From Chelatococcus sp. YT9 (GTDB lineage: Bacteria > Pseudomonadota > Alphaproteobacteria > Rhizobiales > Beijerinckiaceae), in the NCBI RefSeq assembly GCF_018398315.1, contig NZ_JAHBRW010000001.1, positions 3,914,501-3,978,500 of the forward strand: a stretch of 64,000 nt of DNA, in the 5' to 3' direction. The notes below the pieces were generated by a model. That model was not told the origin of the DNA, made no database searches, and saw only the letters and a program-made list of their open reading frames with translations. The position numbers were made by a program, and so were the translations under genes. Below are positions 3,101 through 37,922 of this stretch, in pieces (the stretch's first letter is position 1; each line of letters opens with the position of its first letter).

Positions 3101-4868
3101 TCGCCGCCGCGCTGGCGTTGGCCACTTCCTTTGCATAGAGGGCCTCGCTTTTGGCCTGATAGGCGGTTACGTCAGCCTGCGCCACGCCCGAGCGTGCCAT
3201 GTCCTCGGCAATCTTCTTGCGCTCGGCAAGGCCATTTTGGGCTTCCTGCACCGCGCGATCATACGGCTTCAGGCCGTTGCGGGTTGCGTCCTGGAAGGCC
3301 TTGTCCAATCCGCCTTGCGCCTTGGCGAGCGCCGACACAGCACCAACGGCGCGGGTAGCACCGGCAGTCACCTCATCATAGTTCGGCAGAGGGCCGATCA
3401 TGTCCTTCAGGCGCTTGTCAGCCTCGCGCGCGAACTGCGCGGCAGGGTCGGGGACGCCTGGTATCTCGCCGCCCATGGCCCGAATACGGGAGTTGTAAGC
3501 CTTATCCAGCGCCCGCTCGTATTCCTGTGCTTGCTCGGTCGCGCGCTTCAGATCTTGCTGGCTTGCGAAATCTCGCTTGCCTTCGAGCGATGGGATGACG
3601 TTCTCGCGGTAGTGGCGGACGCCCTCCTGAAGGCTCTGGAGCTGCTGAAGCTCGCGCGTGTTGGGTAGTTCGCGAATCGCCGCGGCAACATTCCGCACTT
3701 CGGCCGCCACACCGTTCATCGCACCGGCAACGCGGGCGGAGATCCCCAACACCTCGTCCATCGCGGCGGCAAGGTCGGAAAAGGCCGTGACACCGTTGGT
3801 GGCAGCATCCTGCATCGTCACCTTGCTGTCGCGGAAGGCGCCATCAATGTCCTCAGACCCCTTCACGATGGCGTCGAAAACGCGGGACGCGGACAACTGT
3901 CCTTCCTCGCCGAGCTGCTTCAACTCGCCGATTCCGACGTTGAATTCCTTGGCGATCAGGCGGGCGAGCGGCGGCGCGCCCTCCAGCACACTGTTCAGTT
4001 CATCACCGCGCAGGGCGCCGGCCGCCATGGCCTGGTTGAGCTGGAGGATCGCGCCCGCCGCCGATTCCGCCGACACGCCGCCAAGCTTGAAGGCCTTGTT
4101 GATGGTCTCGGTGGCGCGCGCGACCTCGGCTTGCGTCTTGCCCAATTCTTGCGTGGAACGGGTGAGCCCGGCATAGAGCGTCACTGTCGGCTCGAGCGAC
4201 GTGCGCGTGTTCAATGCGAGATCAACGAGCATCTGCTGCCGGTCGCCAAGCTGCTCGGCGGCAACACCGGCGGCTTGCAACAGGTTGCCATAGCGCGTGT
4301 ACTGATCACCCGCCACGGCGATCGCCGAGCCCGCCGCGACGACAGCGCTCGCCACCGCCGCCACCCCGCCCGCCAGGCCGCCGAAGCCGGCGAGCCCGCC
4401 GCTGAAGCGGGAAAGCCCGGGCACCGCCGCCGACGCGGCCTGCATCACGCGCCCGAAGCTGCTCGCCATATTGTCGTTGGCAACCGCGACCCCGCCGGTG
4501 CTCGCCGTGACCTGCGCATGCTTTTGCCGGACCATGTCGATGATGCGGGCTGCTTCCTGCTGCGTGGCGATGCCACGGCGCACGGCCATATCCGCCTTCA
4601 GCGTCGCGTCCTGGATGGCGCGCTGCGCGCGAATGGCCGGGTCCATGGAGCGCGACAGCCGTTCCCATTCCGCGCGCGAGCGGCTGATCGAGCCCGCCTG
4701 TCCGCCCATCGCGGCGGTCGCCCTGTCCTGGGCCTCCTGCGCGCGGTTGTGGGCGTCGATCGTCCGATCAACCGCCAGCTGGGCCGCACGCATGGCCTTC
4801 ACGTAGGCCGCGCTGCCGACTTCGGCGCCACGCGCGTCAACGACCAGGTTGGTGACAACTTGCGCCAT
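177..4868 (-). CDS. Phage tail tape measure protein
   Basis: This protein of 1563 residues sets tail length and is ejected through the tail tube. Residues about 200-350 match the tape-measure N-terminal domain, with the motif GALRGDELNSVLEGAPPLA typical of that family. Long coiled-coil and Gln/Ala-rich stretches follow, with a glycine/alanine-rich hydrophobic segment around residues 770-900. Near residues 1400-1430 there is a DUF4214-like stretch (LYKEVFNREADTAGLAYW), then glycine-rich repeats and a C-terminal coiled coil. I chose ATG 4868 over the upstream TTG 4880 because no Shine-Dalgarno sequence favours the latter. It is the last minus-strand tail gene seen before the window edge. Confidence 0.93.
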   Translation of the reverse strand: MAQVVTNLVVDARGAEVGSAAYVKAMRAAQLAVDRTIDAHNRAQEAQDRATAAMGGQAGSISRSRAEWERLSRSMDPAIRAQRAIQDATLKADMAVRRGIATQQEAARIIDMVRQKHAQVTASTGGVAVANDNMASSFGRVMQAASAAVPGLSRFSGGLAGFGGLAGGVAAVASAVVAAGSAIAVAGDQYTRYGNLLQAAGVAAEQLGDRQQMLVDLALNTRTSLEPTVTLYAGLTRSTQELGKTQAEVARATETINKAFKLGGVSAESAAGAILQLNQAMAAGALRGDELNSVLEGAPPLARLIAKEFNVGIGELKQLGEEGQLSASRVFDAIVKGSEDIDGAFRDSKVTMQDAATNGVTAFSDLAAAMDEVLGISARVAGAMNGVAAEVRNVAAAIRELPNTRELQQLQSLQEGVRHYRENVIPSLEGKRDFASQQDLKRATEQAQEYERALDKAYNSRIRAMGGEIPGVPDPAAQFAREADKRLKDMIGPLPNYDEVTAGATRAVGAVSALAKAQGGLDKAFQDATRNGLKPYDRAVQEAQNGLAERKKIAEDMARSGVAQADVTAYQAKSEALYAKEVANASAAATRGGSSRSGANREAANSYDRLIERIQKQNAEMQIEIAGIGASTEETLKLKTARELERSAIEAKIPLTDKVLRQIDEEAGRHARLKTELDATQRAYEQLQEAQSFLGDQLSSFIEDLISGSGSLEDALKRLADTFLKSGLQALLTGEGPLAGILGTAATNKGEQGGLFGYLMGNDVKLFRDTVAKGTAEGVNKAIGTGGQTSGAAIGNVFGIDGKALMGGVTALASLGAAYGSGMSAGSVGMAGVMGGIAGGAGGLAMASSLASAGISLGGLATASVLGPIGLLAGAGIAIYGNMQQRKQQKEELRRQAQENYEAAKPQVAQLGQTFRGDELGNIQQQIQAGIDKLNELGPVLVNAGHVDELIALQNDYNTFVNRLKDEFRADFSGTIDELRAGLGAQGPFKQASDAVKQFGDSAKSFVADTATAFGEGAWQIQNARDASIDYALSMLDQAKTLTEVQQQIQSINGTAAGLSKVLQDLGMSAEDAANAINQRVGAAMDRLRSAFTEGLERRLNEASDMGYLNEMADQIAQYQRDLKDAAMLGLDRALVDQVFKAEAQAIVNGSQLVGAAFDDLIVKFPQLTGVVRAAAMSVAQLEAAATAQLDANVQEAQSAVDAARAALTAAYQAEASALKDTITRTEGYIKSLKAFRQSLLLDNSLSPLSPEQRLIEAQNRFNEVSQKALAGDTEAIGELEEVSRQYLEEARGFYASSEQYYAIFNQVRSILDATANKAETQLDTAKAQLAALDAQVEGLITVNDSVLSVTEAIAKLQETMVALDKAKANQAAGTGGTGQAGDWQETYVKGLYKEVFNREADTAGLAYWTGLLRNGTFNNATLYEAFLQHKANGAMRLGGIVGAYAGGGMVGNGIFDVDSVLARYAGGGSIALAGGEYVMPANQTRANLPMLEAMRAGRPANDDSAREEIRALRSELQETKAVLRQILSNQSEGFGQVARAMTRNAEAAEENNRQQSLNSNRR

Positions 4869-20217: not shown

Positions 20218-21099
20218 TCAAGCCGCGTAAGCAATTTTATTTTTGCGCCTCGCACGGAATCGCGGCGGAGGCAGCGCAGCGGCCCGCGAGAGGGCGCTCG
20301 GCAGGATGCGGGGAGCGCGGGCCTGCCCATCCTCCCACGGCCGTGCAGGGCGGGCACAGGGCGTGAGGGCGATGCTCTCCAGCCCATCCGCCAGATCCTC
20401 GACGAGAAGAGCGAGCGCCGCATGCCACAGCTCATATTCGATGCGGCCGATGATGCCGGGCACAGGGTCGGGCTCGAGGTAGGTCCGCTGGTAGGCACCA
20501 GGGTAGGGGCGACGACGGGTGTGGTTGTAGCCTTCGACTGTCACCGTCCGCTCGACAACCCGCCCGTCGCACGTCTCCTCATACACAACCCTGTCGATGA
20601 ACCATGCGGGCTGGCCGGTGGAGGCCTGCCGCTCAACCTTGCGCTCAGGCACATCCATCTCCCACACGGGGCAGCCACCCATTAAGGCGAACCGCTCGAC
20701 CAGTTGCCGCCGTCCGCGAAAGTGCCGTTGCCCTTGCTGGTCGATGTAGGTCGCCCGCTGCAGGGCCTGAGCCGCAAGGCTGGCCGCATCGTCGCCGATC
20801 TCGGGCATATCGCCCAGCGGATCCCACGCATCCGGCACCTCAACCGCGCAGCCATCCAGGGCGCGCACGGCATCGAACACGCGCACCGCATCCACATGCG
20901 GCGCATCCAGCGCGGTTAGATCCGGCAGCACGCCATAGCGGTTATAGTCGATCACCGCCAGGAGCTGCGCATAGCTCGAAATGCCAGCCCAGCCTGGGCG
21001 AATGCTGTCTGACGGCCCATTAGCCGAGCCGAGGGCTTTTGGCAGCTCCTCACGATATGCCCAACGCAGCACAGCCTCGATATCCATGGTCCGTTTCAT
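20218..21099 (-). CDS. Replication-region protein, paralogue 1
   Basis: A protein of 293 residues. Its first 88 residues (from KRTMDIEAVLRWAYREELP to VRALDGCAVEVP) are about 94% identical to those of the gene at 21427-21891. The rest is unrelated to that paralogue: an alanine-rich helix, then DVPERKVERQAS, a region with YNHTRRRPYPGAYQRTYLEP, and a proline/arginine-rich tail. I do not recognise either domain. The strong Shine-Dalgarno sequence AGGAATTC precedes ATG 21099. Upstream is an array of 10-bp repeats (21124-21395). Confidence 0.6.
   Translation of the reverse strand: MKRTMDIEAVLRWAYREELPKALGSANGPSDSIRPGWAGISSYAQLLAVIDYNRYGVLPDLTALDAPHVDAVRVFDAVRALDGCAVEVPDAWDPLGDMPEIGDDAASLAAQALQRATYIDQQGQRHFRGRRQLVERFALMGGCPVWEMDVPERKVERQASTGQPAWFIDRVVYEETCDGRVVERTVTVEGYNHTRRRPYPGAYQRTYLEPDPVPGIIGRIEYELWHAALALLVEDLADGLESIALTPCARPARPWEDGQARAPRILPSALSRAAALPPPRFRARRKNKIAYAA
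20832..21098. repeat. Direct repeat, copy 1 (about 267 bp)
   Basis: Encodes the shared N-terminal domain of the two paralogues. It aligns without gaps to 21621-21887 with roughly 20 differences, so the duplication is fairly recent. Confidence 0.85.
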
Positions 21100-21123
21100 G
21101 GAGAATTCCTGTCGTAGGGGGTT

Positions 21124-21395
21124 GGCGACAGTTAGCGACAGTTGAAATCAGACCGTCGCCGAATATTTATCAAGAAACATCAACATATTAGAAGAAGTAG
21201 CGACAGTTGGCGATAGTTTTTCCGTGTAACGTATAGAATTTTCGGGGGATGAGATCCCCCGAACCCCGTATTGCATATACGCACGCGAAAAACTGTCGCT
21301 ACTGTCGCCGCGCGCGCTTAAGTCGTTGTCATGTCGGGGGAAAATGGCGGCGACACTTGCCGGGAAACCGTCGCTAACTGTCGCCAACTGTCGCC
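21124..21395. repeat. Array of 10-bp repeats GGCGACAGTT (array 1)
   Basis: Ten units matching (A/G)GCGACAGTT with at most one mismatch. Direct units at 21124, 21134, 21199, 21209 and 21349; inverted units at 21291, 21301, 21366, 21376 and 21386. They are mostly in tandem pairs or triplets at one helical-turn spacing. A perfect 10-bp palindrome with a 3-nt loop (21241-21263, TTCGGGGGAT / ATCCCCCGAA) stands in the centre. This fills the 327-bp gap between the two paralogues; no gene is visible. Candidate phage replication origin or operator cluster. Confidence 0.7.
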
Positions 21396-21426
21396 GGGCG
21401 GCGGGTGTTAATACTCGCCCCGCTTC

Positions 21427-21891
21427 TCAATCGTTGGGGTTGCGGGGCGCCTCAGGGCGGGCCGGCACGTCATGAAGCTCACAGCTGAGGTAGAAGATGC
21501 GGCCGGTCTGTTCGGCCTTCTGGAAGCGCTGCCCGACGACGCGCCCGAATTTCGTCTGCGAGCGGGCGCGCTTGGCATTGGCGAGCGACCACGACACATA
21601 GGCCTCGTAGGCCGCATGCGCCGGCACCTCAACCGCGCAGCCATCCAGGGCGCGCACGGCATCGAACACACGCACCGCATCCACATGCGGCCCATCCAGA
21701 GCGGTTAGATCCGGCAGCACGCCATAGCGGTTGTAGTCGATCACCGCCAGGAGCTGCGCATAGCTCGAAATGCCAGCCCAGCCCGAGCGGATGCTGTCAG
21801 ACGGCCCACTGGCCGAACCGAGGGCCTTTGGCAGCTCCTCACGATAGGCCCAACGCAGCAACGTCTCGATATCCATGGTCCGCTTCGTCAT
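21427..21891 (-). CDS. Replication-region protein, paralogue 2
   Basis: A 154-residue protein. Residues 3-90 duplicate the N-terminal domain of the downstream gene. The C-terminal part (AAYEAYVSWSLANAKRARSQ, then KFGRVVGQRFQKAEQTGRIF and YLSCELHDV) looks like the winged-helix domain at the end of P4/D5-type primase-helicases. It may therefore be a DNA-binding replication accessory factor. ATG 21891 follows GGAG; an in-frame ATG at 21954 is the alternative but lies in the repeat array. It lies downstream of the DUF5906 helicase. Confidence 0.6.
   Translation of the reverse strand: MTKRTMDIETLLRWAYREELPKALGSASGPSDSIRSGWAGISSYAQLLAVIDYNRYGVLPDLTALDGPHVDAVRVFDAVRALDGCAVEVPAHAAYEAYVSWSLANAKRARSQTKFGRVVGQRFQKAEQTGRIFYLSCELHDVPARPEAPRNPND
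21621..21887. repeat. Direct repeat, copy 2 (about 267 bp)
   Basis: The second copy of the sequence at 20832-21098, encoding the N-terminal domain of paralogue 2. Confidence 0.85.
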
Positions 21892-21905
21892 TGCAGCTTC
21901 TCCAG

Positions 21906-22180
21906 TGTCAAACCTTGTCAAACCTTTTGAAGAAGAAAGAGTAAGGTTTGCCATGCCAGATGCCTTACTCTCGCTGGCTTTGGCTAACCTGCCAGACCTT
22001 CCAAACCTGAATTGGGAATTTCGGATAACTGCTCGCGAGACAGGGAGCGTCGGTTAGCCATGCTTCGCGCGCATGCCCGCGCGCACGTGAGGCGATGGGT
22101 CTGACAGGTTTGGCGGGTTTGGCAAATCATTGAGATAACTTGCATTTCTCTGTCAAACCTCGATTTTTGGTGTCAAACCT
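21906..22180. repeat. Array of 10-bp repeats TGTCAAACCT (array 2)
   Basis: Exact units at 21906-21915 and 21916-21925 (tandem), 22151-22160 and 22171-22180. Degenerate units occur between: TGGCTAACCT and TGCCAGACCT around 21981-21999, TCCAAACCT at 22000, and inverted AGGTTTGG-type units at 21944, 22106 and 22115. The array fills the 352-bp gap upstream of paralogue 2, where no gene is visible. The unit length equals that of array 1 but the sequence differs. Confidence 0.65.
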
Positions 22181-22243
22181 AGGTCTGCCTGTTTTATCGA
22201 AAGCATTTCCACCCCTCGCTGCCTGTCTCTCTCGCGACGCGGT

Positions 22244-23707
22244 TCAAGGCCAGTCGACACGCTGTTGCAGCGAATCTTCGAAGGCGGCGCGGCAGTCTTC
22301 GAGCGCAGGCATCCGCCACTGCCAAACACGCCGCTGGCTCCCATCCGGGCTATCCCAGGCGCTACGCTCCGCCGTCAGGCCCGGCACAAGCTTCACGAGC
22401 TTCATGCCGACCTCGGTATCGGCCGCGCGGCGCTTCACGCCGATGCGATCGGACACCGCGATGTAATCATCCGCCAGGACGGATTTAGGAATCAGGCGCA
22501 GCCAGCTGTCACCGCCGCGCGTTGTTGTCCCTGTCATGAGCCGCTCGAACCACCACGACTCGATCGAATCGAGCGAGCGAATCTTTTGCTCAAGCAACGC
22601 TTCCGTGCGGGGGATCTTACGCAGGTCGACTGATTCGAGATCGAAATTCAGAAGATCGTAGAGAAGGGCCTCCCGTCCGCCGTTATCCAGCTCCTCATCC
22701 ATTTCGCGGAAGTAATTGTGGTTCTGAGCACAGCGAGGGTTGATGTCGAGCACACAGAAACGGCGTTCGTCCTTTCCCGCCGGTACCACCCAATCATTAT
22801 TGGAAGTCATGATGAGGCGCAGATAGTTCTTGAGGCGGATCGGATCGACGCCCTTAGCCTCGATCTGCTGGATGGGCGAGGTCACCAATCCTTTGAGGCG
22901 GCCTTCGGCCGTCTTGTCGCCCGCCCAGACCGCTTCGTCAGCCTGGAGCAGTATGCAGCTGCCCATATGCGCGTTGAATTGGCCGGTCACATAGCGGGGA
23001 TCGTCGACGAGGAAATAGTGCCGCTGGATGAGCGACCCCATGGCTTCGCCCACCTTGGTTTTGCCGGTGCCCATCAGGCCGCGCAGCACAATAGCGACGC
23101 CGATGCGCTCGCGAGGGCGCTGCATCATGTGGGCAAAGAAGCCGAAGAACCAACGAAATGTTGCTTCATTGCCGTCGCAAACATTGTTGAGCATATGGTC
23201 GCGCAGGATCGCGTAACCATTGTCTTTCTTCTTTGGCTTGACAGAAAATCCTGACCACAGGTTTAGATATCCCGGCGTTCCGGTCGCATTGTCCTTGTCA
23301 GGGAAGAATTCGATACCGCGGTAGCTTCGGCGCGCGCGGTTTGAAAGCCATGCCTGAGCCCACGTCACAGCCTTGATCTTGCCGTCACTTCCAACGATCT
23401 CGGTGTAGCGATTCGCGAACCATGCGCGCAGGGCATCCAGCGTCAGCACGCGCTGCACGTCTTCAAGCGGCGCGTTCGGCTGCTCGAGATAGACAACAGC
23501 CTTCGACCCCATCAGCACGAGCGCGAATTCGCTGTTCATATGGTCCATGTCGAAGCCAAGGGCACGGGGCATCGGCGGCTCCCCACTGCCCGAAATGCTG
23601 TCTACCCCTTGCTGCCCTGTCTCTCCGCCGCGGTCGATTTCCGCGCCATCCTCCAGCACTTCCGCGGAGTCCAGCACGTCGCCGATGCGTCGTGATTCAT
23701 CGGTCAT
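22244..23707 (-). CDS. Phage replicative helicase, DUF5906/primase-helicase type
   Basis: A 487-residue protein. The helicase domain has Walker A GLMGTGKTKV (about residue 218), Walker B-like LLQADEAVW, and the sensor-like LRLIMTSNNDWVVP, followed by DERRFCVLDINP. This is the SF3-like DUF5906 family of phage and plasmid helicases. The N-terminal 100 residues are variable and acidic. Start ATG 23707 follows GGAGTAG. It follows methyltransferase and primase in one leftward replication operon and faces the repeat arrays on its 3' side. Confidence 0.87.
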   Translation of the reverse strand: MTDESRRIGDVLDSAEVLEDGAEIDRGGETGQQGVDSISGSGEPPMPRALGFDMDHMNSEFALVLMGSKAVVYLEQPNAPLEDVQRVLTLDALRAWFANRYTEIVGSDGKIKAVTWAQAWLSNRARRSYRGIEFFPDKDNATGTPGYLNLWSGFSVKPKKKDNGYAILRDHMLNNVCDGNEATFRWFFGFFAHMMQRPRERIGVAIVLRGLMGTGKTKVGEAMGSLIQRHYFLVDDPRYVTGQFNAHMGSCILLQADEAVWAGDKTAEGRLKGLVTSPIQQIEAKGVDPIRLKNYLRLIMTSNNDWVVPAGKDERRFCVLDINPRCAQNHNYFREMDEELDNGGREALLYDLLNFDLESVDLRKIPRTEALLEQKIRSLDSIESWWFERLMTGTTTRGGDSWLRLIPKSVLADDYIAVSDRIGVKRRAADTEVGMKLVKLVPGLTAERSAWDSPDGSQRRVWQWRMPALEDCRAAFEDSLQQRVDWP

Positions 23708-23711
23708 CGGT

Positions 23712-24473
23712 CTACTCCGCAGCGAAAAGGGGAAAAGGGTCGTCCGCGGGCGGGCCTGACGGTCGCGATGTAGCCTTCAGCAGGAAGTCAGGCTGCGCTT
23801 CGACACGCGAGATCCGTTGGCAGGCGGCATCGAAATATTCAGGAACGAGCTCGATCCCGATGAACTTAGCGCCGGACTTCAGGCACGCCATTCCCGTGGT
23901 GCCGGATCCCATATACGGATCGAGCACGGTCGGGCTGGGCGCATCAGTCGCGACGCGCACAAGCTTTGTCATGAGGCCGATGGGCTTAATGGTGGGATGG
24001 ATGGAACTGTCGCCCGAGGCAGGTCCAACCCAGAAGCGTGACTTGTCCGCATAGGTGCCGCCGATGCGCACGCCCTTCCAAAAGTGGAAGATGTATTCGG
24101 CATCAGGGAGATAGTTTGCTCCACACAGCGGCGTCGGATTCGTCTTGTTGAACGTCGTCAGGTTCCAACGGAAGGCGTTCGCTTCGCCCCACTCGATCAG
24201 CTTCCGAAGCTGAGCCTTCGCACAGAAAACAGTGATCGAATTAGACACGCCGAGGAGAAGGTCAGGGTCGAACCCGGTGTGCAGGTCGGCATTATAGATG
24301 TCTTTGTAGACCTTGCGCTTCGCGCCCAGGCCGCCACCCATCGGCACGAATTCGTAAGGCGGGTCGGTGACAACAGCATCAACCACGCCCAAGCTTGGCA
24401 GAATTGCTCTGCAGTCGCCCAGATACAGCGTCGCATCGCCTATGACTTCTTTGCGCTGCCACGGTTGCGTCAC
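23712..24473 (-). CDS. Site-specific DNA methyltransferase (DPPY type)
   Basis: A 253-residue protein. The catalytic motif IV is VVTDPPYEF (about residue 36) and the AdoMet-binding motif I is LDPYMGSGTTGMACL (about residue 196). Catalytic motif first is the beta-class order of N6-adenine/N4-cytosine methyltransferases. No restriction partner is adjacent, so it is probably an orphan phage methylase that protects or marks phage DNA. GTG 24473 overlaps the primase stop codon (GTGA). Confidence 0.88.
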   Translation of the reverse strand: MTQPWQRKEVIGDATLYLGDCRAILPSLGVVDAVVTDPPYEFVPMGGGLGAKRKVYKDIYNADLHTGFDPDLLLGVSNSITVFCAKAQLRKLIEWGEANAFRWNLTTFNKTNPTPLCGANYLPDAEYIFHFWKGVRIGGTYADKSRFWVGPASGDSSIHPTIKPIGLMTKLVRVATDAPSPTVLDPYMGSGTTGMACLKSGAKFIGIELVPEYFDAACQRISRVEAQPDFLLKATSRPSGPPADDPFPLFAAE

Positions 24474-25657
24474 CCCGCCATCTCCCCTTGCAGCATGTCG
24501 TTGAAATCCTTGCCCGCATCAGCCCAGGCCACGCGGATGGCGCGGCCGGGCTTGCGGAAGCGGCGGCCGGCGCGCAGCAGGGCGTTTTTGGTCAGCTCGC
24601 GGTCGCTGTCGCCGTCGCCGAGCAGGATCACGTCTTCGATCCTGTCCGGCACGGGGATGGAGGGCTCGTCGAGGTCCGGCACAGGGCCGGGCATCCGCTG
24701 GCGCCGCACATGCCCAAGCGCGTTGCGCCAGGTCAGCGTCGGGTGCGGCACCGTCTCGGTGGCCTTGCCGCCGAGGTTGCCGAGGTCGATCGAGGACCAG
24801 AACAGGCAACCGCTGATGTCGCGCCCGTCCTTCACCAGCGCCTGCCGCACCGAGAGCACGGTCTCGATGCCCTCGCCGATGTCGAGGGTGCGGGCCGAGG
24901 TCACGTCGCCGCCAAGGTGGATATAGCCGCCGCGCTTGGAGCCCCGCACTTTCTTCGACGGCAGGATTTCGCCCGTGTCCGGATCGGTGATCACCGCCTT
25001 TCGCGCGGTTGCAGCGTCGAGATAGGTGATATGGATGCCGGAAAAGCGCCCATCCGGCCCGATGATGGCGGCAAGCTGCGCCGGTCCCGTATGGATGAGC
25101 CGCGGGCTGCGGTTCCCCATCTCGTCCACGGTCTCGCCGTGGAAATAGCGCATCTCGGGATGGTAACGCAGCCGCGCGTCAGCCGGCGCCTCAAAGCCCC
25201 GCCCTTCATGGTAGGCGGCAACGAGCGTCCCGGCGATCGGCTGCCCATGCTGCCAGATGCGGTGCAGCCGCGCGCGCTCCTGTTCGCGGTAGGTGGCGGA
25301 GGCCGCGTCGTTCTTGGCCTTCCGCTCCGCCCGTTCCTTGGCATGCCGGGCCGCGGCTTCCGCATCCGGCTCCTGCGCGCCGCCCAGCCATTCCACTGCG
25401 CCGCGGAAATCCTTGCCCTCGACACGCTCGACCAGGCGGATGACATCGCCGCCATCCTCGCAGACCGCGCAGACCCAGCGGTCTGCCCAGGCCTCGAAAC
25501 GCCCCGCCGATTTCGACAGGCGATTGTGGGAGCAGATCGGGCAGGGGCCAACCATCTTGCCGCCGGAGGCGCGCAGGTTCACCCATTTCGCCGCCAGCTG
25601 GTCGCACGGGTTGCGGGCGCGCAAGTCATCGAGCGCTTCGGGAGAGATCAACGCCAT
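24470..25657 (-). CDS. Phage DNA primase (CHC2 zinc finger plus Toprim)
   Basis: A 395-residue protein. The zinc-binding domain lies at about residues 37-75 (GPCPICSHNR and WVCAVCEDGGDVI). The Toprim-type region shows TLDIGEGIETVLSVRQAL (about residue 262) and DVILLGDGDSD (about residue 343). It would lay RNA primers for phage replication with the separate DUF5906 helicase. ATG 25657 overlaps the previous small membrane gene by 10 bp. Confidence 0.87.
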   Translation of the reverse strand: MALISPEALDDLRARNPCDQLAAKWVNLRASGGKMVGPCPICSHNRLSKSAGRFEAWADRWVCAVCEDGGDVIRLVERVEGKDFRGAVEWLGGAQEPDAEAAARHAKERAERKAKNDAASATYREQERARLHRIWQHGQPIAGTLVAAYHEGRGFEAPADARLRYHPEMRYFHGETVDEMGNRSPRLIHTGPAQLAAIIGPDGRFSGIHITYLDAATARKAVITDPDTGEILPSKKVRGSKRGGYIHLGGDVTSARTLDIGEGIETVLSVRQALVKDGRDISGCLFWSSIDLGNLGGKATETVPHPTLTWRNALGHVRRQRMPGPVPDLDEPSIPVPDRIEDVILLGDGDSDRELTKNALLRAGRRFRKPGRAIRVAWADAGKDFNDMLQGEMAG

Positions 25658-25824
25658 GGGAAATACTCAACAGCGAACGCGAATCCCAAGATGAAGATCA
25701 GGCAGATCCCGAACATCAATCGACGCGGGAAGCAGAATAATTGACGCAGGTTAGGCTCTAGACAGAATGCGCACAGCCAATAAGAGACGCTTGCGGCTAT
25801 CAGCGAATAGACCACCCCATTCAT
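25648..25824 (-). CDS. Small two-span membrane protein
   Basis: A 58-residue protein with two hydrophobic helices: VVYSLIAASVSYWLCAFCL and LMFGICLIFILGFAFAVEYF. An excellent Shine-Dalgarno sequence (AAGGAG) precedes ATG 25824, which overlaps the upstream stop codon (TGATG). It overlaps the primase start at its other end. The function is unknown. Confidence 0.65.
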   Translation of the reverse strand: MNGVVYSLIAASVSYWLCAFCLEPNLRQLFCFPRRLMFGICLIFILGFAFAVEYFPWR

Positions 25825-26027
25825 CACGCAATCTCCTTGAACAAGGCCAGTTGCTGACGGTTCCAGAGCGCCGAACCCGCCAGCGCCGCGAGCACCCGCT
25901 CGCGTGGCATCTTCAGGGCCCGTGCGATCGCAAAGACAGGCAACCCGGCGGCCCGCATGCGGCAGGCGATCCGCGCGCGGCGCGGGTGCGAGAGCCGGAT
26001 GACGGTGAAGCGGGGGCGGCGCGCCAT
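25824..26027 (-). CDS. Small basic HTH-like protein
   Basis: A 67-residue protein. Strongly basic start (MARRPRFTVIRLSHPRRARI), then a helix-turn-helix-like segment (MRAAGLPVFAIARALKMPRE). It probably binds DNA. ATG 26027 lies just after the upstream stop codon; a longer upstream frame has no better start. Confidence 0.55.
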   Translation of the reverse strand: MARRPRFTVIRLSHPRRARIACRMRAAGLPVFAIARALKMPRERVLAALAGSALWNRQQLALFKEIA

Positions 26028-29225: not shown

Positions 29226-29860
29226 TCGGCACATCCTCCCCCTGGCTGCAGACGGCATCAGGCCGCGCCTTCGATCTCATCAACCCGACCGCGGAGATGG
29301 TCGACTTCCGGTATGACGTGCCGGATGCGCTCGCCCGCATCGCCCGATTCAATGGGCATGTGCCGGTCGGTCCTTATTCGGTGGCGCAGCATTGCTGCAT
29401 CGGCGCCGATGCCATCCTCGACGAGACCGGCCGGCCTGACCTCGCCGCCGCCTTCCTGCTCCATGACGCGCACGAGGCCTATATCGGCGACATCACCACT
29501 CCCGTTGCGCGCGCCTTGGCGCATCTGGCGACGGGGGAACATGCCGTCGATGGCCACGCCCAGGCAGTGCGAAAATCGATCGAGCGCCTCAAGATGCGCC
29601 TCGACCGGGCGATCTTCGAGGCCGCCGGCCTGCACTGGCCTTTGCTGGGACAGGCGGACCTTCTGATCAAGAGCATGGACATGCGCATGCTCGAGGCCGA
29701 GCGCCGCCAGCTGCTCGCCCCGCCGCCAGCCCCGTGGGGCATCGAGTGCGAGCCGCCCCGCCTGCGCCGCGGCGCCCTCACCATCTGGCCATGGATCCGC
29801 GCCGCCGATGAATGGCGCGCCCGCTTCACCCGCCTTTGCCCCGCCGCACTCGCGGCCTGA
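29222..29860 (+). CDS. HD-domain phosphohydrolase (YfbR-like)
   Basis: A 212-residue protein. Metal-binding residues of an HD domain are visible: SVAQHCCIGA (His), AFLLHDAHEAYIGDITTP (HD pair), and QADLLIKSMDMRMLEAER (final Asp). Phage members of this family hydrolyse deoxynucleoside 5'-phosphates. Here it would adjust nucleotide pools for replication. Confidence 0.8.
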   Translation: MIGTSSPWLQTASGRAFDLINPTAEMVDFRYDVPDALARIARFNGHVPVGPYSVAQHCCIGADAILDETGRPDLAAAFLLHDAHEAYIGDITTPVARALAHLATGEHAVDGHAQAVRKSIERLKMRLDRAIFEAAGLHWPLLGQADLLIKSMDMRMLEAERRQLLAPPPAPWGIECEPPRLRRGALTIWPWIRAADEWRARFTRLCPAALAA

Positions 29861-29877
29861 CCCTGGGAGACTGCCCC

Positions 29878-30222
29878 TTGTCCGCTCGCATCATCCGCCG
29901 CTTCGGCGACATGCTCGGTCTGTTGAACCGCGGCAAATTCACCGAGTCCTGTGACGAGCACCTGACCAAGGCCATCGAGACCTTGGAGGCGCTGCCCTCT
30001 GAGAAGGGCACAGCCACCATCACCGTGACAATCACGGTGAACTATGAAAGCGGCCGCCTCGATATCAAGCCGACCGTGAAATCGAAGCTCCCCGAAGACA
30101 AGGCCTTTGCGGCAACGCCGTTCTGGGCTGTCGAGGGTGGCGTCAGCGTCAACCACCCCAGCCAGCACGACATGTTCCCGCGCGACGCCACCGAGCGTGA
30201 GCGCGAGCGCGCCGGCGCCTGA
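29878..30222 (+). CDS. Hypothetical protein preceding DUF2303
   Basis: A 114-residue protein. The N-terminal helix carries RRFGDMLGLLNRGKFTE and the core is a beta sandwich-like stretch (TATITVTITVNYESGRLDIK). TTG 29878 is chosen because GGGAGA lies at good spacing. Proteins of this pattern are often found upstream of DUF2303 genes, but their role is unknown. Confidence 0.55.
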   Translation: MSARIIRRFGDMLGLLNRGKFTESCDEHLTKAIETLEALPSEKGTATITVTITVNYESGRLDIKPTVKSKLPEDKAFAATPFWAVEGGVSVNHPSQHDMFPRDATERERERAGA

Positions 30223-30250
30223 TCTCCCCCGCCACAGAGGAACCCTTTCC

Positions 30251-31240
30251 ATGTCTGAGACCAAAATAAACATTCCGCCCGAACTCGCGTCCGCATTGGC
30301 CGCCATTGCCGCGTCGCGCATTCCTGATGGAGGCGAAGGCGTCGACAAGATCGCTCGCATGGCTCATGAGGCAGGCGGGCGTAACCTTGAAATCGAGTGG
30401 CTGGCGACAGGGGATCTGGGCAAAGGCCTTCCCGAGGAGGTTCCACTTGTCATCGATCGCCGCCAGGGAGGCAAGATTTCAACTTTAGAGGACGAGATAG
30501 AGCGGTATCGCATCGGCCCGGATCGTCGCAAAGGCACCGCCCGTGTCACGACGCTGCGCGCCTTCGTTGATCTGGTGAACCGCCACAAGGATGAGGGCTC
30601 GGTCATCTTCGCCCGCACCGATTGGCCTGAGCCCGGTTTGACGGCCGTCATCGACTATCACACCAAGGATCATGCGCCCCGGCATGGCGAGCACCGGATC
30701 GAGTATAAGTTCCCGGTCACCAAAGAATTCAAGGCGTGGGTCGACCGTAACGGCAAGACGCTTCAGCAAGAGGATTTCGCCCTGTTCCTTGAAGAGCGGG
30801 CGCCCGATCTTGTCGAGCCGAATGACGACGAGGTGAAGCTGCTCGAAACCCTCCTCAAGACGCGTATTGCCATGCCCAACGAGGTGTTTGACCTGGCGCG
30901 CGGCCTGGAGGTGCGAGTCGGACAGACCGTCGCCAACCACACGCGCATTCAGAGCGGTGAAGGGCAGCTCGTTTTCACCGAGACGCACACCAATGCCAAG
31001 GGCGAGCCCCTGATCGTCCCCGGCCTCTTTATCATCCAGGTCGCGGCCTTCGTGGATGGCGGCCCCGTCCGCATCCCAGCACGCCTGCGCTACCGCGTGA
31101 AGGGCGGCGACATCGTTTGGTTTTACCAGCTCTACCAATGGGAAGAGAACCTGCGCGGCCGCATCAAGATCGATCTCGAAAGCGCGGAGTTCGACACCAA
31201 CCTTCCGACCTATGAGGGCAGCCCAGAAGCGCGCGCCTGA
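30251..31240 (+). CDS. DUF2303 (YfdQ-like) phage protein
   Basis: A 329-residue protein recognisable as DUF2303 from segments such as TTLRAFVDLVNRHKDEGSVI, TAVIDYHTKDHAPRHGEHRI and LETLLKTRIAMPNEVFDLAR. The family occurs in early or recombination regions of many temperate phages, function unknown. It lies 28 bp after the preceding gene. The next 176 bp (31241-31416) hold no gene I can support. Confidence 0.8.
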   Translation: MSETKINIPPELASALAAIAASRIPDGGEGVDKIARMAHEAGGRNLEIEWLATGDLGKGLPEEVPLVIDRRQGGKISTLEDEIERYRIGPDRRKGTARVTTLRAFVDLVNRHKDEGSVIFARTDWPEPGLTAVIDYHTKDHAPRHGEHRIEYKFPVTKEFKAWVDRNGKTLQQEDFALFLEERAPDLVEPNDDEVKLLETLLKTRIAMPNEVFDLARGLEVRVGQTVANHTRIQSGEGQLVFTETHTNAKGEPLIVPGLFIIQVAAFVDGGPVRIPARLRYRVKGGDIVWFYQLYQWEENLRGRIKIDLESAEFDTNLPTYEGSPEARA

Positions 31241-31416
31241 TATCCCGTGCGAAAGCGCGTGACGAAGCCGGCCGCCAAGGAACCTGAAACGGCGTCCGGT
31301 GGAGCGCGTGAGTAGGCCCGGCAGGGGGCGGACCCTGCCTGCAACGTCTGAGTTTATGGACGCGACTTCGCCGGGGGGAGAGCAACCCGGCACCAATTCC
31401 GATCCGAGAGCTAACC

Positions 31417-31644
31417 GTGGCCAACACACTCACCAAAAGCCAAGTGGAAGCCCTGCGGTGGCTCCGCGAGCACAACGGCGAAGGCATGTTCACAAACGTC
31501 GGCACGCTCCTCGCGGCTGGCGAGATCGCCCCCGTTGTGCGGTCGACCTGGAATGCCCTGGCGCAGGCCGGGTTTGTCGAATTCCACGGCGGCAAAAGCG
31601 GTCGCGGGCGCCTGCGCATCATCGAAAAGGCGGCAACCCCATGA
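31417..31644 (+). CDS. Small winged-helix-like protein
   Basis: A 75-residue protein (LTKSQVEALRWLREHNGEG, then VRSTWNALAQAGFVEFHGG and RGRLRIIEKA), looking like a minimal winged helix with a basic wing. GTG 31417 has a modest AGAG upstream. It overlaps the start of the clamp gene (ATGA), so it may be translationally coupled to it. Confidence 0.6.
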   Translation: MANTLTKSQVEALRWLREHNGEGMFTNVGTLLAAGEIAPVVRSTWNALAQAGFVEFHGGKSGRGRLRIIEKAATP

Positions 31645-32756
31645 AACTCACCCTCGATCGCGCGGCCCTGCTGAAGCCTCTCGCCGCGCTCAACCGCATC
31701 GTCGAGAAACGCACGACGATTCCGATCCTCTCCAACATCCTCCTGAAGGCTGCCGATGGCCGGCTGACCCTGCAGGCAACTGACCTCGACATGGAGGCGA
31801 CCGCAGGCGTCGCGGCCGAGGTCGAGGCGCCGGGGGCGATCACCCTGCCGTCAGGCACCCTGCACGACATCGCCCGGAAGATGCCGGAGGGCGGGCGCAT
31901 CAGCATGGAGGCGAATGCCGGCGGCACGCACGTCCTCGTTAAATCCGGCCGGTCGCGCTTCACCGTCAATGCCCTGCCGCCGGAAGACTTCCCCGACCTG
32001 TCGGCGGGCGACCGGCCGCACAGCTTCATCATGCCGGCGAAGACGCTTGCCCGGCTGATCGAACAGACACGCTTCGCCATCTCCACCGAGGAAACCCGTT
32101 ATTACCTCAACGGCATCTTTCTGCATGTCGCAGAGGGCAGGGAAGGCCCATGGCTCACGGCCGTGGCCACCGATGGGCACCGGCTGGCGCGCGCCAGGAC
32201 CATGCCACCCGATGGCGCGATCGGCATGCCCGGCGTCATCGTGCCGCGCAAGACGGTCGGCGAGCTGGTGCGGATGCTCGACACCACAGGCGATGTCGCC
32301 GTGTCGCTGTCATCGAGCAAGATCCGCTTCGCCATCGGCGACGAGGTGCTTACCTCGAAGCTGATAGACGGCACCTTTCCCGACTATCTCCGCGTGATCC
32401 CGCAAGGCAACGACAAGCGGGCGACGCTCGATCGCGTGGCAATGGCCGAGGCGACCGACCGCGTGTCGACCGTCTCGAGCGACCGCGGCCGAGCCGTGAA
32501 ATTTGCCTTCGAGCAGGGCCGCGTTTCGATGAGCGTGACGAACCCGGAATCCGGCGAGGCGCACGAGGAGATGGAGGCCGATTATGAAGCCGAGCCGATC
32601 AGCATCGGCTTCAACGCTAAATACATGGCCGAGATCTTGAGCATCCTCGACAGCGACAAGGTCGCCGTCACGATGGCAGATCCCGGCTCCCCCACACTGA
32701 TCGTAACCCCCGACGACGACAGCCTGCTGCTCGTCCTCATGCCGATGAGGGTGTGA
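31641..32756 (+). CDS. dnaN: DNA polymerase III beta subunit (sliding clamp), phage-borne
   Basis: A 371-residue protein, the normal length for the three-domain beta clamp. Signatures: NRIVEKRTTIPILSNILL near the start, ETRYYLNGIFLHV in the middle, and VATDGHRLARA plus the C-terminal LLLVLMPMRV. It tethers polymerase to DNA. A complete clamp is unusual in a temperate siphovirus. No polymerase is seen in the window, so it would have to recruit the host polymerase or compete with the host clamp. Confidence 0.93.
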   Translation: MKLTLDRAALLKPLAALNRIVEKRTTIPILSNILLKAADGRLTLQATDLDMEATAGVAAEVEAPGAITLPSGTLHDIARKMPEGGRISMEANAGGTHVLVKSGRSRFTVNALPPEDFPDLSAGDRPHSFIMPAKTLARLIEQTRFAISTEETRYYLNGIFLHVAEGREGPWLTAVATDGHRLARARTMPPDGAIGMPGVIVPRKTVGELVRMLDTTGDVAVSLSSSKIRFAIGDEVLTSKLIDGTFPDYLRVIPQGNDKRATLDRVAMAEATDRVSTVSSDRGRAVKFAFEQGRVSMSVTNPESGEAHEEMEADYEAEPISIGFNAKYMAEILSILDSDKVAVTMADPGSPTLIVTPDDDSLLLVLMPMRV

Positions 32757-32758
32757 CC

Positions 32759-33997
32759 ATGCCCCTGACCCAACAGCAATTCGCGCAGAAATGCGCCTAC
32801 GTCGCGCGCCACGCCTCGGCATGGGCCGGGGACACGCTGGAGATGGAAGGCGACGTCTCGCCCGACACGGTCGCGCGGTTCACAGATGAGTTGCGGGAAC
32901 GTGCCAACCACCTCGACCGGCGCGCCGGGCGGCAAGCGTCGGCGGCAACAGTTCCGGCGCCGGTCTACAAGGGTGTCGAGCGCATCCTCGATGAGAACAG
33001 CGCGTGGATCGCGCGGCCAAGCGATGAGGTGACAAAACGCGTCGCGCTCGCTGCCACCATCGCCGCGCACACGATAATCGACAAGGAAGGTGCCGAACTT
33101 GCACCACCGCCCGGCACGACAGCAATCGAGGCCTTGAAAGTGGCTATCGAAGGCGAGTGCGACGGGCTAGCGATCGACGATGCGCAGGCGACAGTGATCC
33201 TCAACTACGTTGCTCAGGCGGAACGCGCCGAGGATGCGGAGCCGGTTGCGTGGATGTACCCGGACCACGTGGCAGCTTATCAGCAAAAAACTGCAGGTGG
33301 CATCGCGTGGGCCTCTCAAGAGCAAACCGATTTCTACTCTATCCCGCTCTACACCCACCCGCCCAAGCCCGAGCCGTCGCCCGCCCCCGCACGGTGGACC
33401 GATGCCGAGATCGCCACCGTTTGGCGCGCTGCGATGACTGCCGCATGCAACATCATAATCAAGCGGCAAAATGACCTGAACGATGATGATGATCCAACGG
33501 ACATCCTCAACGAACAGGATCAGTGCATCCATCAGATTAAGAAGTGGATCGAGCCCGATGGTGCACATCTCGAGGAAATACGCCTCCTTTTAGGTGGAAC
33601 GGCGGCCACCAAGCCCGAGCCGTCGCCAGATGTGGAGGCGGCACCCTTCGCGAGCTTGGTTGCATTGCGCGCCGCGAACATAGCGCGCGATGCTGAGTGG
33701 GCGCCAGACGTTAAGCCGGACCTCGCATTTCGCGGCAATGAGCTTGCCGGCGAAACCGGTGAGGCCTGCAACGTCATCAAAAAGCTGGAGCGCGAGCGGC
33801 ATGGATGGGTTGGCTCTCGCGCCACACTTACGGATCTCGCTGACGAGCTGGCAGATGTTGTGATCTGCGCCGATCTCGCGGCCATGACAGCGGGAATAGA
33901 CCTATCCGGAGCCGTTGTGCGCAAGTTCAACGCCACCTCCGATAAGAACGGCTTGGCGACGCGGATGGCAGCACTCAGCAAGCCGGAGGGCGCCTGA
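32759..33997 (+). CDS. Mosaic early protein with C-terminal MazG-like domain
   Basis: A 412-residue protein. The last 110 residues match MazG-like NTP pyrophosphohydrolases (ANIARDAEWAPD, ELAGETGEACNVIKKLERER, ELADVVICADLAAMTAGIDL, VRKFNATSDKNGL). The middle has EPVAWMYPDHVAAYQQ and YSIPLYTHPPKPEPS, a pattern of phage Eaa/DUF551-type proteins. The N-terminal 100 residues are helical and unassigned. The repeated KPEPSP linkers suggest domain shuffling. MazG domains hydrolyse (deoxy)nucleotides or alarmones. Confidence 0.72.
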   Translation: MPLTQQQFAQKCAYVARHASAWAGDTLEMEGDVSPDTVARFTDELRERANHLDRRAGRQASAATVPAPVYKGVERILDENSAWIARPSDEVTKRVALAATIAAHTIIDKEGAELAPPPGTTAIEALKVAIEGECDGLAIDDAQATVILNYVAQAERAEDAEPVAWMYPDHVAAYQQKTAGGIAWASQEQTDFYSIPLYTHPPKPEPSPAPARWTDAEIATVWRAAMTAACNIIIKRQNDLNDDDDPTDILNEQDQCIHQIKKWIEPDGAHLEEIRLLLGGTAATKPEPSPDVEAAPFASLVALRAANIARDAEWAPDVKPDLAFRGNELAGETGEACNVIKKLERERHGWVGSRATLTDLADELADVVICADLAAMTAGIDLSGAVVRKFNATSDKNGLATRMAALSKPEGA

Positions 33998-33998
33998 C

Positions 33999-34664
33999 AT
34001 GCTCTGGATCCAGAATGTGACCCCGGAAGGCTTCGCTCGCTCTGACGATCAACCTCACGATTATGTGCTGAAGATCAACCGCAACGAACTGGCCCGGTTT
34101 CAGCATATCCGGGCCAAGGGCGCGGCCGAATGTCTGCGCGCCGCTGCCGATGCTTTCGACAAGGCCGAAGCCCTCAGCAAGCGAGATGGGTGGGTGACTA
34201 TGGGGGCCTTTGCCGACCCGCCACCCGCTCCGGAAGGGATGAAACTGGAAGTCCAGCTTTGCCCCCTGCTTGGATCTGTGAGCGCATACCGGCACGTCCC
34301 CGAGCCACCGCCGCTCGCAATGCCCATCAGCCGTGCCATTGAGATCGTCGGCATGATCTGCCACCGCAGTTTTCACGCCATGGGCGTGACCGTACGGGTC
34401 GGAGATCTGGACGGTGTATCTCTGGCCGCGATGGTCGAGGCAAAACGCCTAGTCGAGGCGGAGAACGACAAGCCTGCGGTCGACGGTGCGCGCACGATCC
34501 ATGTCGTGCCCGACGATCGTCTCATCGCGGCGGCCTATGCCCTTGCCAACTATGAGCCGAGGCACGGCGCGGTTGTTTCGGAGCCGGATGGCGACGGGCT
34601 GACCAAAGCGCTGGCGATCGTCAGGATCACAGCCGAGCCGCAGCGGGAGAGCAACCATGGGTGA
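33999..34664 (+). CDS. Hypothetical early phage protein
   Basis: A 221-residue protein (MLWIQNVTPEGFARSDDQPH). No known motif is evident; it has an alanine-rich helix (KGAAECLRAAADAFDKAEAL) and a proline-rich linker. It starts right after the MazG-like gene and its stop overlaps the DUF5131 start. I do not recognise it. Confidence 0.55.
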   Translation: MLWIQNVTPEGFARSDDQPHDYVLKINRNELARFQHIRAKGAAECLRAAADAFDKAEALSKRDGWVTMGAFADPPPAPEGMKLEVQLCPLLGSVSAYRHVPEPPPLAMPISRAIEIVGMICHRSFHAMGVTVRVGDLDGVSLAAMVEAKRLVEAENDKPAVDGARTIHVVPDDRLIAAAYALANYEPRHGAVVSEPDGDGLTKALAIVRITAEPQRESNHG

Positions 34665-35655
34665 CCGCACCGGCATTCAATGGACGGACGCTACCTGGAA
34701 TCCGATCGTCGGTTGCTCGATCGTCTCGCCAGGCTGCACCAACTGCTACGCCATGAAGATGTCAGACCGCATTGAGAAGATGACGCCTGGTTCCCACTAT
34801 GCCGGCACGACGATGCGGGTGAAGGGCAAGCCCGTCTGGACCAGCAAGATGGCGATGGCGCCCGATGCCATCCTGACACAGCCGCTGCGCTGGAAGCGCC
34901 CGCGCAGGGTGTTCGTCAATTCCATGGGCGATCTCTTTCACGAGAGCGTGCCCGATGACTGGATCGACCGCGTCTTCGCCGTCATGGCGCTGGCGCCGCA
35001 GCATTCATTTCAGGTGCTGACGAAGCGGTCGGCGCGGATGCGGGACTATCTTTGCACCCGTGCAGGCGATTGGGTTCTAGAGCTCTCGCGCGCGGTTCGT
35101 GAAGCCAGCCTCGTCAAATGGGCCGATCGGCCCGACCGCGCCACACCGCGTTGGCCTCTGCCGAATGTTTGGCTCGGCGTGTCCGCTGAAGATCAGAGGC
35201 GTTGGGAAGAGCGCATTCCAGACCTGAAAGCGACACCCGCAACCGTTCGCTTTGTCAGCGCCGAGCCGCTGCTTGGACCGATCGTCGGTGACATTTCAGG
35301 GCTAGACTGGATCATCGTCGGCGGCGAGAGCGGCCCCGGTTCCCGCCCGATGCATCCGGATTGGGCACGCTCGATCCGCGATCAGTGCGCGGCCGCCGGC
35401 GTCCCGTTCTTTTTCAAGCAATGGGGCGATTGGTCCGTTGCCCTCGACCGCAGCAGAGAGGATCCAGATTGGAGCGCTGATTACGGCTACAAGCTCAGCC
35501 GCACGCGCCCTGATATCGCATGGCTCAACCTGGAAGGCGGGAGCGGTTTCCACGGCGAGCGATTCCATGTGATGCGCCGCATCGGGAAGCGGTCCGCCGG
35601 CCGGCTTCTCGACGGCATCGAGCACAACGCCATGCCGGGAGGCGCGCATGCCTGA
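34657..35655 (+). CDS. DUF5131 / phage Gp37-Gp68 family protein
   Basis: A 332-residue protein. The hallmark is GIQWTDATWNPIVGCSIVSP followed by GCTNCYAMKM, a three-cysteine cluster, then RVFVNSMGDLFHESVPD and SFQVLTKRSARM, and VGGESGPGSRPM. The cysteine cluster resembles that of radical-SAM enzymes. The family is common in phages and its function is not established. It overlaps both neighbours by a few bases. Confidence 0.82.
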   Translation: MGDRTGIQWTDATWNPIVGCSIVSPGCTNCYAMKMSDRIEKMTPGSHYAGTTMRVKGKPVWTSKMAMAPDAILTQPLRWKRPRRVFVNSMGDLFHESVPDDWIDRVFAVMALAPQHSFQVLTKRSARMRDYLCTRAGDWVLELSRAVREASLVKWADRPDRATPRWPLPNVWLGVSAEDQRRWEERIPDLKATPATVRFVSAEPLLGPIVGDISGLDWIIVGGESGPGSRPMHPDWARSIRDQCAAAGVPFFFKQWGDWSVALDRSREDPDWSADYGYKLSRTRPDIAWLNLEGGSGFHGERFHVMRRIGKRSAGRLLDGIEHNAMPGGAHA

Positions 35656-37772: not shown

Positions 37773-37848
37773 ACAGACTCTGTAAAATGCCTGTAAAATG
37801 CCGTTTCCGGTCCAACCTTCAGAATGGAAAAAACGTAAGGATTACAGT

Positions 37849-37895
37849 TGGCTGGGGGACCTGGATTCGAACCAGGACTAACGGAGTCAGAGTCC
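37849..37895. other. Probable phage attachment site (att) in the tRNA-Gln 3' half
   Basis: The integrase lies directly beside the 3' half of this tRNA and the chromosome resumes on its far side. Integrases of this kind use tRNA 3' ends and rebuild the tRNA with phage DNA. The other prophage end, which should repeat part of this segment, is outside the window, so the exact core cannot be set. Confidence 0.6.
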
Positions 37896-37922
37896 GCAGT
37901 TCTACCGTTAAACTATCCCCCA
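37849..37922 (-). tRNA. tRNA-Gln (anticodon CUG)
   Basis: Reading the minus strand, the 74-nt cloverleaf starts TGGGGGA and ends TCCCCCA-G-CCA, so CCA is encoded. The anticodon stem GCGGA/TCCGT frames the loop CTCTGAC with anticodon CTG. The T loop is GGTTCGAATCC. The 3' end faces the phage integrase. Confidence 0.95.

Follow-up and report, generated by a model that had tools for sequence, protein, structure and literature searches.

Two tandem iteron arrays in a phage replication module of Chelatococcus sp. YT9 are putative helicase-recognised origins

The 64,000-nucleotide stretch of Chelatococcus sp. YT9 DNA analyzed here (the window) contains two arrays of 10-bp repeats, and very probably both are phage origins that are recognised by a helicase and lie 3' of an AAA+ primase-helicase gene; array B would be the resident origin and array A an origin derived from a donor. 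Judged by sequence and by analogy, they are most likely origins of the kind described for SaPI Rep, Cch2 and phage A2. New here is the tandem of two such origins; the kind itself is already known. We infer binding and origin activity from the layout of the arrays, from their presence and absence beside helicase genes, and from the covariation of the repeat unit with the helicase C-terminus.

The replication module and its two arrays

On the minus strand, in the direction of transcription, a zinc-ribbon/Toprim primase is followed by a DNA methylase, a DUF5906 primase-helicase, array B, gene B, array A, gene A, an unidentified frame, and the small and large terminase subunits. The features are as follows; the array coordinates were converted by hand from offsets.

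20218-21099, minus strand: gene A, phrog_9306 family (9306 below), open frame of 293 aa (PHROG E=6.2e-56)
21124-21395, both orientations: array A, 11 copies of GGCGACAGTT/AACTGTCGCC, layout >>><>>-82-<<><<
21241-21263: hairpin in the middle of array A, stem of 10 bp (z=-3.27 for the DNA fold of 21210-21290)
21427-21891, minus strand: gene B, open frame of 154 aa, a 9306 N-domain with the putative C-terminal end of a P4-family primase
21430-21621, minus strand: gene B tail (residues 91-154), putative primase C-terminal end, winged-helix-like, 58-67% identical to helicase frames
21622-21891, minus strand: gene B N-domain (residues 1-90, N-terminal region of phrog_9306), a copy of the start of gene A
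21906-22190, both orientations: array B, 13 copies of AGGTTTGnCA in facing clusters
22244-23707, minus strand: DUF5906/VapE-like primase-helicase (PF19263, E=3.1e-21), C-terminal end of class I
23712-24473, minus strand: DNA methylase
24470-25657, minus strand: zinc-ribbon/Toprim primase of the same replication module (PF01807, PF13362, PF23639)

The DUF5906 helicase also matches PHROG DNA primase families and the PDB entries 6k9c/6k9e, named 'Primase' (E=1.1e-10). On the P4-family model TIGR01613 it reaches only 14.1 bits, below the curated cut-off of 108.7 bits, and no P4-family helicase above this cut-off is present in the host genome. Its C-terminus is closest to those of the loci L038, L185 and L179, whose arrays resemble array B.

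The earlier note on this DNA had described an array of its own, with a 10-bp period and a differing unit, before each of the genes A and B. This holds for the copies (11 and 13) and for their units, but the copies form facing clusters in both orientations and not a simple tandem. In the 450 bp upstream, the commonest 8-mer (strands pooled) occurs seven times for A and four times for B; among 100 dinucleotide shuffles, with a mean maximum of 2.0, none was as high. Copy pairs face each other over a gap (>>-gap-<<) in 55 of 66 arrays, and the median gap among those 55 is 87 bp. Array A has this layout; array B fails the strict layout test because one weak extra copy narrows its centre. None of 200 shuffles matched the stability of the hairpin in array A; the centre of array B forms no stable one (z=0.36). 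Array A is not unusually decayed, at 0.91 mismatches per copy (rank 24 of 66); of the two, array B is the more degenerate (1.46, rank 48 of 66).

In other loci the array sits in the gap ahead of the 9306 gene, which measures 225-491 bp in 29 of 30 stretches examined (709 bp in L042), and its unit varies widely (AACCCTCGC, AGGTTGGACA, AGGGAGGC, GGGTAACG and others). The array-B pattern was not found in viral contigs; the array-A pattern matched 13 of them, each with just the two copies of the query, which we take as chance. In genome contigs the array-A pattern gave nine matches: in L136 it lies between a helicase and a 9306 gene, in L142 there is no more than a weak C-terminal match, and the remaining seven have neither a helicase nor a 9306 match. 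Among the sequences searched, no donor phage of array A was found. The host genome holds no further paired array-A units at up to one mismatch; together with the lack of a P4-family helicase over the cut-off, this makes array A look orphaned there.

Elsewhere in the window, at 37780-37922, a perfect 11-bp tandem repeat (CTGTAAAATGC) adjoins a tRNA-Gln gene; it is possibly near an attachment site.

Array presence follows the helicase

In a survey whose rows are not deduplicated (L061, L197 and L121 are counted twice) and in which some array-negative rows lie near contig ends, an array was called in 89 of 97 rows that have a 9306 gene and a helicase within 2.6 kb upstream of it. Without a helicase in that range, an array accompanies the 9306 gene in four of 28 rows; in the other 24 none was called. 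Conversely, six of eight rows with a helicase and no 9306 match at E<=1e-6 have an array, three loci counted here as helicase-only (L121, L124 and L125) having weaker 9306-like matches. The survey of homologues proposed in the earlier note, which expected an array beside each copy of the shared domain, thus went against that expectation.

Among the eight array-negative rows with a helicase, an inserted frame displaces the array in L042 and its duplicate L153; in L182 and L246 it lies beside the helicase, far from the 9306 gene; in L040 and its duplicate L168 the array is degenerate and passed a different scan, as did the borderline array of L188; no such reason is apparent for L055. Four rows have an array but no helicase. 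In two of them, both L061, the 9306 frame is broken and a C-terminal fragment of a helicase lies upstream; L167 stops at a contig end, and in L241 the helicase lies about 4 kb upstream.

A single genome carries the two prophages L041 and L042. Ahead of the helicase their identity is 95%, and from a point near the 9306 start onward it is 96.8%; no blastn alignment extends across the helicase and the array, and the arrays differ (AGGGAGGC vs AACTATCACC).

Array sequence covaries with the helicase C-terminus

The array unit correlates with the helicase C-terminus: the rank Mantel r is 0.65 in the discovery set (27 loci), 0.61 in a second set (37 loci) and 0.64 in all 64, each with p=3e-4, which is the floor for 3000 permutations, a procedure that does not fully remove relatedness. 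The corresponding values for the array unit and the 9306 family are 0.07, -0.04 and 0.03, and for the 88-residue N-domain r is -0.01 (64 loci). Partial correlations tell the two apart: r is 0.64 for the C-terminus given 9306 and 0.01 for 9306 given the C-terminus. The suggestion of the earlier note that the proteins A and B and their arrays are matched partners is not supported by these values. Two initiator/origin sets with diverged specificity was the right kind of answer, but the 88-residue domain finds no support as the partner of the array. The helicase core correlates with the array as well (r=0.61), r being 0.31 for the C-terminus given the core and 0.15 for the core given the C-terminus. 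Because of this, location of the iteron specificity in the C-terminal domain of the helicase is favoured by the sequence comparison, not proven.

The discovery set comprises 27 of 30 arrays, the two window arrays and L060 being left out. The second set was drawn from viral contigs and further genomes; from 56 new loci with a confident helicase, three were removed for want of a 9306 gene, seven for a weak array and nine as duplicates, and the resulting 37 retain some kin, e.g. L157 and L187. The test leaves out L036, whose 9306 gene is broken, L055, whose helicase is some 1.8 kb away, and the homologues that have no helicase next to them. For L075 the primase was used, not the adjacent antirepressor gene.

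When the window is compared with 65 loci, likeness to the gene B tail goes with likeness to array A (rho 0.57) and against likeness to array B (-0.43). The reverse is seen for the C-terminus of the window helicase, with rho 0.38 for array B and -0.66 for array A; for array B the correlation is weak in the first 27 loci alone (rho 0.32, p=0.11). For the N-domains of A and B the link with array B is weak (rho 0.27, p=0.03, 64 loci), and with array A there is none (rho -0.21 and -0.24). Individual loci illustrate both trends: L185, whose class I C-terminus is similar to that of the window helicase, has the unit TGnCAAACCT, i.e. the array-B unit on the other strand, and L120, with a class II C-terminus, has the unit TGGCGACnGT, close to array A. 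There are also counter-cases. The C-termini of L161, L040 and L150 are about as tail-like, yet their units are less similar; the units of L136 resemble array A, while only 19 of 53 positions of its C-terminus are identical to the gene B tail. By this comparison array B would fit the DUF5906 helicase just upstream, and array A would fit the P4-family type of helicase, i.e. the type represented by the gene B tail.

Gene B as a chimera

Genes A and B share a block of 266 nt (20832-21097 vs 21621-21886) that is 94% identical, with five amino-acid differences in the first 85 codons from a common Met-Asp-Ile-Glu; on this point the earlier note was correct. Of 18 nucleotide differences in the first 86 codons (junction codon included), 12 fall on third positions, and over the same codons dN/dS is 0.18 and dS 0.20. 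We do not take the low ratio as proof of a working gene B, because two 9306 alleles may have diverged before the fusion. Beyond the common 85 or so codons the two proteins are wholly different. The C-termini had accordingly been called unrelated, which is true of A against B; the tail of B does have relatives, since it resembles the C-terminus of P4-family primases.

Gene A matches the phrog_9306 profile over its full length (residues 2-262), and gene B with its N-domain alone (residues 2-94, E=2.5e-16). This is a conserved phage family without assigned function, and gene A sits between an array and the terminase genes. Of 397 genomes sampled from the order, 38, including the host, have a member of the family. 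The AlphaFold2 model of gene A has a mean pLDDT of 88, and its fold has no match at E<=0.001 in PDB or BFVD. A scan of genome contigs returned no relative of the 9306 N-domain, and in the other sources scanned (130 in all) there is no second copy of it, except for a broken frame in L197.

Six other genomes have frames of helicase size (593-771 aa) that match the tail of gene B with 58-67% identity (E 1.5e-15 to 4.9e-24). Among these frames, that of L040 encodes a P4-family primase (TIGR01613, 193.4 bits) whose C-terminus, the end that matches the gene B tail, scores 28.1 on Pox_D5 (PF03288; gathering score 21.4). The tail itself has no Pox_D5 match at E<=1; its kinship with the Pox_D5 C-termini is based on the 58-67% identity, not on a model score. 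Gene B matches RFX_DNA_binding at E=0.12, under the cut-off of that model. In the AlphaFold2 model of gene B, blocks over residues 91-140 have a pLDDT of 82-90, and two helices (91-104 and 112-122) and two strands (125-128 and 131-135) have good local confidence; the 9306-derived part (helix 72-82, strand 88-90) is of low confidence because the alignment did not reach it. The best PDB fold match of the tail is the RFX DNA-binding domain 1dp7, with a probability of 0.87 but E=0.7, so that the model is suggestive of an RFX-like DNA-binding fold. A profile of the tail found nothing relevant among PDB sequences.

Among 397 genomes of the host's family, a match over all 154 residues of gene B occurs in the host genome only; the other matches of that scan begin at residues 36-49 and lie within helicase-sized frames. 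Phage records yielded no relatives of gene B, and plasmids no match to window positions 20218-26000. By sequence, then, gene B is identified as a chimera of a gene-A-family N-domain and a P4-family helicase C-terminus, and it may be a relic of recombination or an active DNA-binding protein.

The host has a second prophage-like locus that shows what the module looks like with one array:

C1:3454700-3467500: L038, a related DUF5906 helicase with a AGGTTGGACA array in a single-origin arrangement

L038 and the window align over 1946 columns (76%), through the helicase and array B and into gene B for about its first 53 codons; these codons of the gene B N-domain are collinear with the start of the L038 9306 gene. 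The same start also aligns with gene A, and the DNA past the L038 9306 gene aligns with the DNA past gene A. Given this pattern, a helicase tail, array A and the greater part of a 9306 gene look like an insert into a module of the L038 type.

From this arrangement we infer a donor event. The DUF5906 helicase at 22244-23707 would read array B as the resident origin, and array A would be a second, foreign origin from a phage with a P4-family (D5-type) helicase. Module recombination would have fused about 90 codons from the start of the resident 9306 gene with about 64 from the end of the donor helicase, a junction that gene B would represent; behind it would come the array of the donor and a complete 9306 gene (gene A). 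In both origins a helicase C-terminal domain would read the iterons, and the inverted clusters facing a central element may serve to load two helicase rings, as conjectured from SaPI and Cch2.

Domains of the primase-type C-terminal kind occur in other settings as well. An antirepressor-type protein of the window (P0003, 5713-6612, minus strand; P22_AR_N, E=1.4e-29) has a C-terminus that fits the same domain profile as gene B, and an equivalent domain is found on Bro-N proteins in phage RR1-A (L075) and in L041. In L173, positions 3316-3693 hold a freestanding copy between a complete helicase and the array, in an open frame of 125 aa (88 aa counted from the first start codon); separation of the domain may therefore have occurred more than once. 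Further short frames with such a domain are present in L126 and L251.

Comparison with known systems

In Lactobacillus phage A2 (AJ251789), a rep_origin is annotated at 32208-32717 (L261 2644-3153), starting 27 bp before the end of the primase gene. Like the window arrays it has decamers of one orientation, an AT-rich centre and then copies in the opposite orientation. Unlike the window, the stretch 29565-34708 has one annotated origin, with fewer copies (3 + 4), another unit (ACGGGAGGAT) and a different gene after it. Among the open-licence matches listed, no paper on this annotation was found. The gene B tail matches the end of the A2 primase at chance level (31%, E=0.9).

The C-terminal domain of SaPI Rep reads iterons directly downstream of its own gene, and the isolated C-terminal domain of SCCmec Cch2 bound its putative origin (PMC7581432). 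These systems share with the window short iterons just 3' of the helicase gene, and their C-terminal reader would have its counterpart in the window helicase. They differ in that they are staphylococcal and in that only three iterons are reported for Cch2; the cited passages of that paper mention neither a tandem origin nor a chimeric gene. In the window, multiple short iterons lie directly downstream in both cases (13 and 11 copies), an AAA+/SF3-type helicase lies directly upstream of array B, and upstream of array A there is just the putative helicase C-terminal end in gene B, the intact gene being missing.

The pRN1 and BIP-1 replicons (prim-pol, SF3 helicase, winged helix) have their origin 3' of the replication gene, and the winged helix has been proposed as the first contact (PMC4234260). 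The parallel is looser; the origin of the archaeal plasmid pRN1 is described in that source as a large stem-loop, not an iteron array. Among the matches listed from open-licence PubMed Central, no title or opening of an abstract names a tandem origin with a chimeric gene, or these arrays; PMC5537653 refers to phage RR1-A and contains none of the terms iteron, primase and origin of replication.

Alternative explanations

In the model of the earlier note, the 88-residue domain acts as initiator or regulator; either copy would read its own array, and the five differing residues would set the specificity. Where a helicase is present too, the domain does follow an array in most rows, the window has two copies and two arrays, and the N-domain tracks array B, if weakly. 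Yet we consider this model highly improbable and reject the domain as array reader: it does not covary with the array, nearly identical 9306 genes go with different arrays in one genome (L041 and L042), and family members without a helicase are mostly without an array. Nor do the five residues find support as the seat of specificity, since the differing positions 5 and 6 vary freely among homologues. It is quite improbable, too, that the arrays are operators of a phage transcriptional regulator instead of origins. Their position just upstream of genes A and B would suit an operator, and the antirepressor-type proteins of the window, L041 and L075 carry a C-terminal domain similar to that of gene B, but presence and sequence of the arrays follow the helicase, and the two-sided layout and the annotated A2 origin of like design fit an origin better.

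A further possibility is compatible with two helicase-recognised origins and concerns only the present role of the insert: gene B and array A could have been retained as a device that titrates or occupies the initiation apparatus of superinfecting phages with the same iteron. We regard this as unlikely, and keep it as an option of low probability because origin-based resistance has been described for phiSfi21, where PER, a non-coding phage element, acts as an infection-activated, host-protecting origin (PMC6356513, citing Foley 1998); the cited passage mentions no freestanding recognition domain, and the likeness bears on interference only. That gene B is open with a low dN/dS in its N-domain relative to gene A, and that array A is not unusually decayed, would agree with such a role, as would the absence from the host of a P4-family helicase over the cut-off, which leaves array A with no known resident user. 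Against it, the divergence of A and B may predate the fusion, a recent recombination would look just as intact, and only one such arrangement was found, which gives no sign of repeated selection; the dN/dS and the low decay fit a recent event or selection. In its most specific form, a stolen origin and a stolen freestanding recognition domain, fused to the phage's own 9306 N-domain, would be used against phages with the same iteron, gene B occupying the origin of competitors and array A drawing away or exploiting their helicase. This form we think unlikely; if true, it would be an interference system at the level of the origin, built by domain capture.

Significance

Under the preferred explanation, that of two helicase-recognised origins, one resident and one from a donor, several dozen related phages share one origin design (55 of 66 arrays) in which the iteron changes with the helicase C-terminus. 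They form a natural data set, and with such covarying loci the recognition code of this class of initiators would be directly testable and origins could be paired with initiators from sequence alone. The window would illustrate one possible route for the exchange of specificity, in which a phage that already bears an origin acquires a recognition domain along with the origin that belongs to it.
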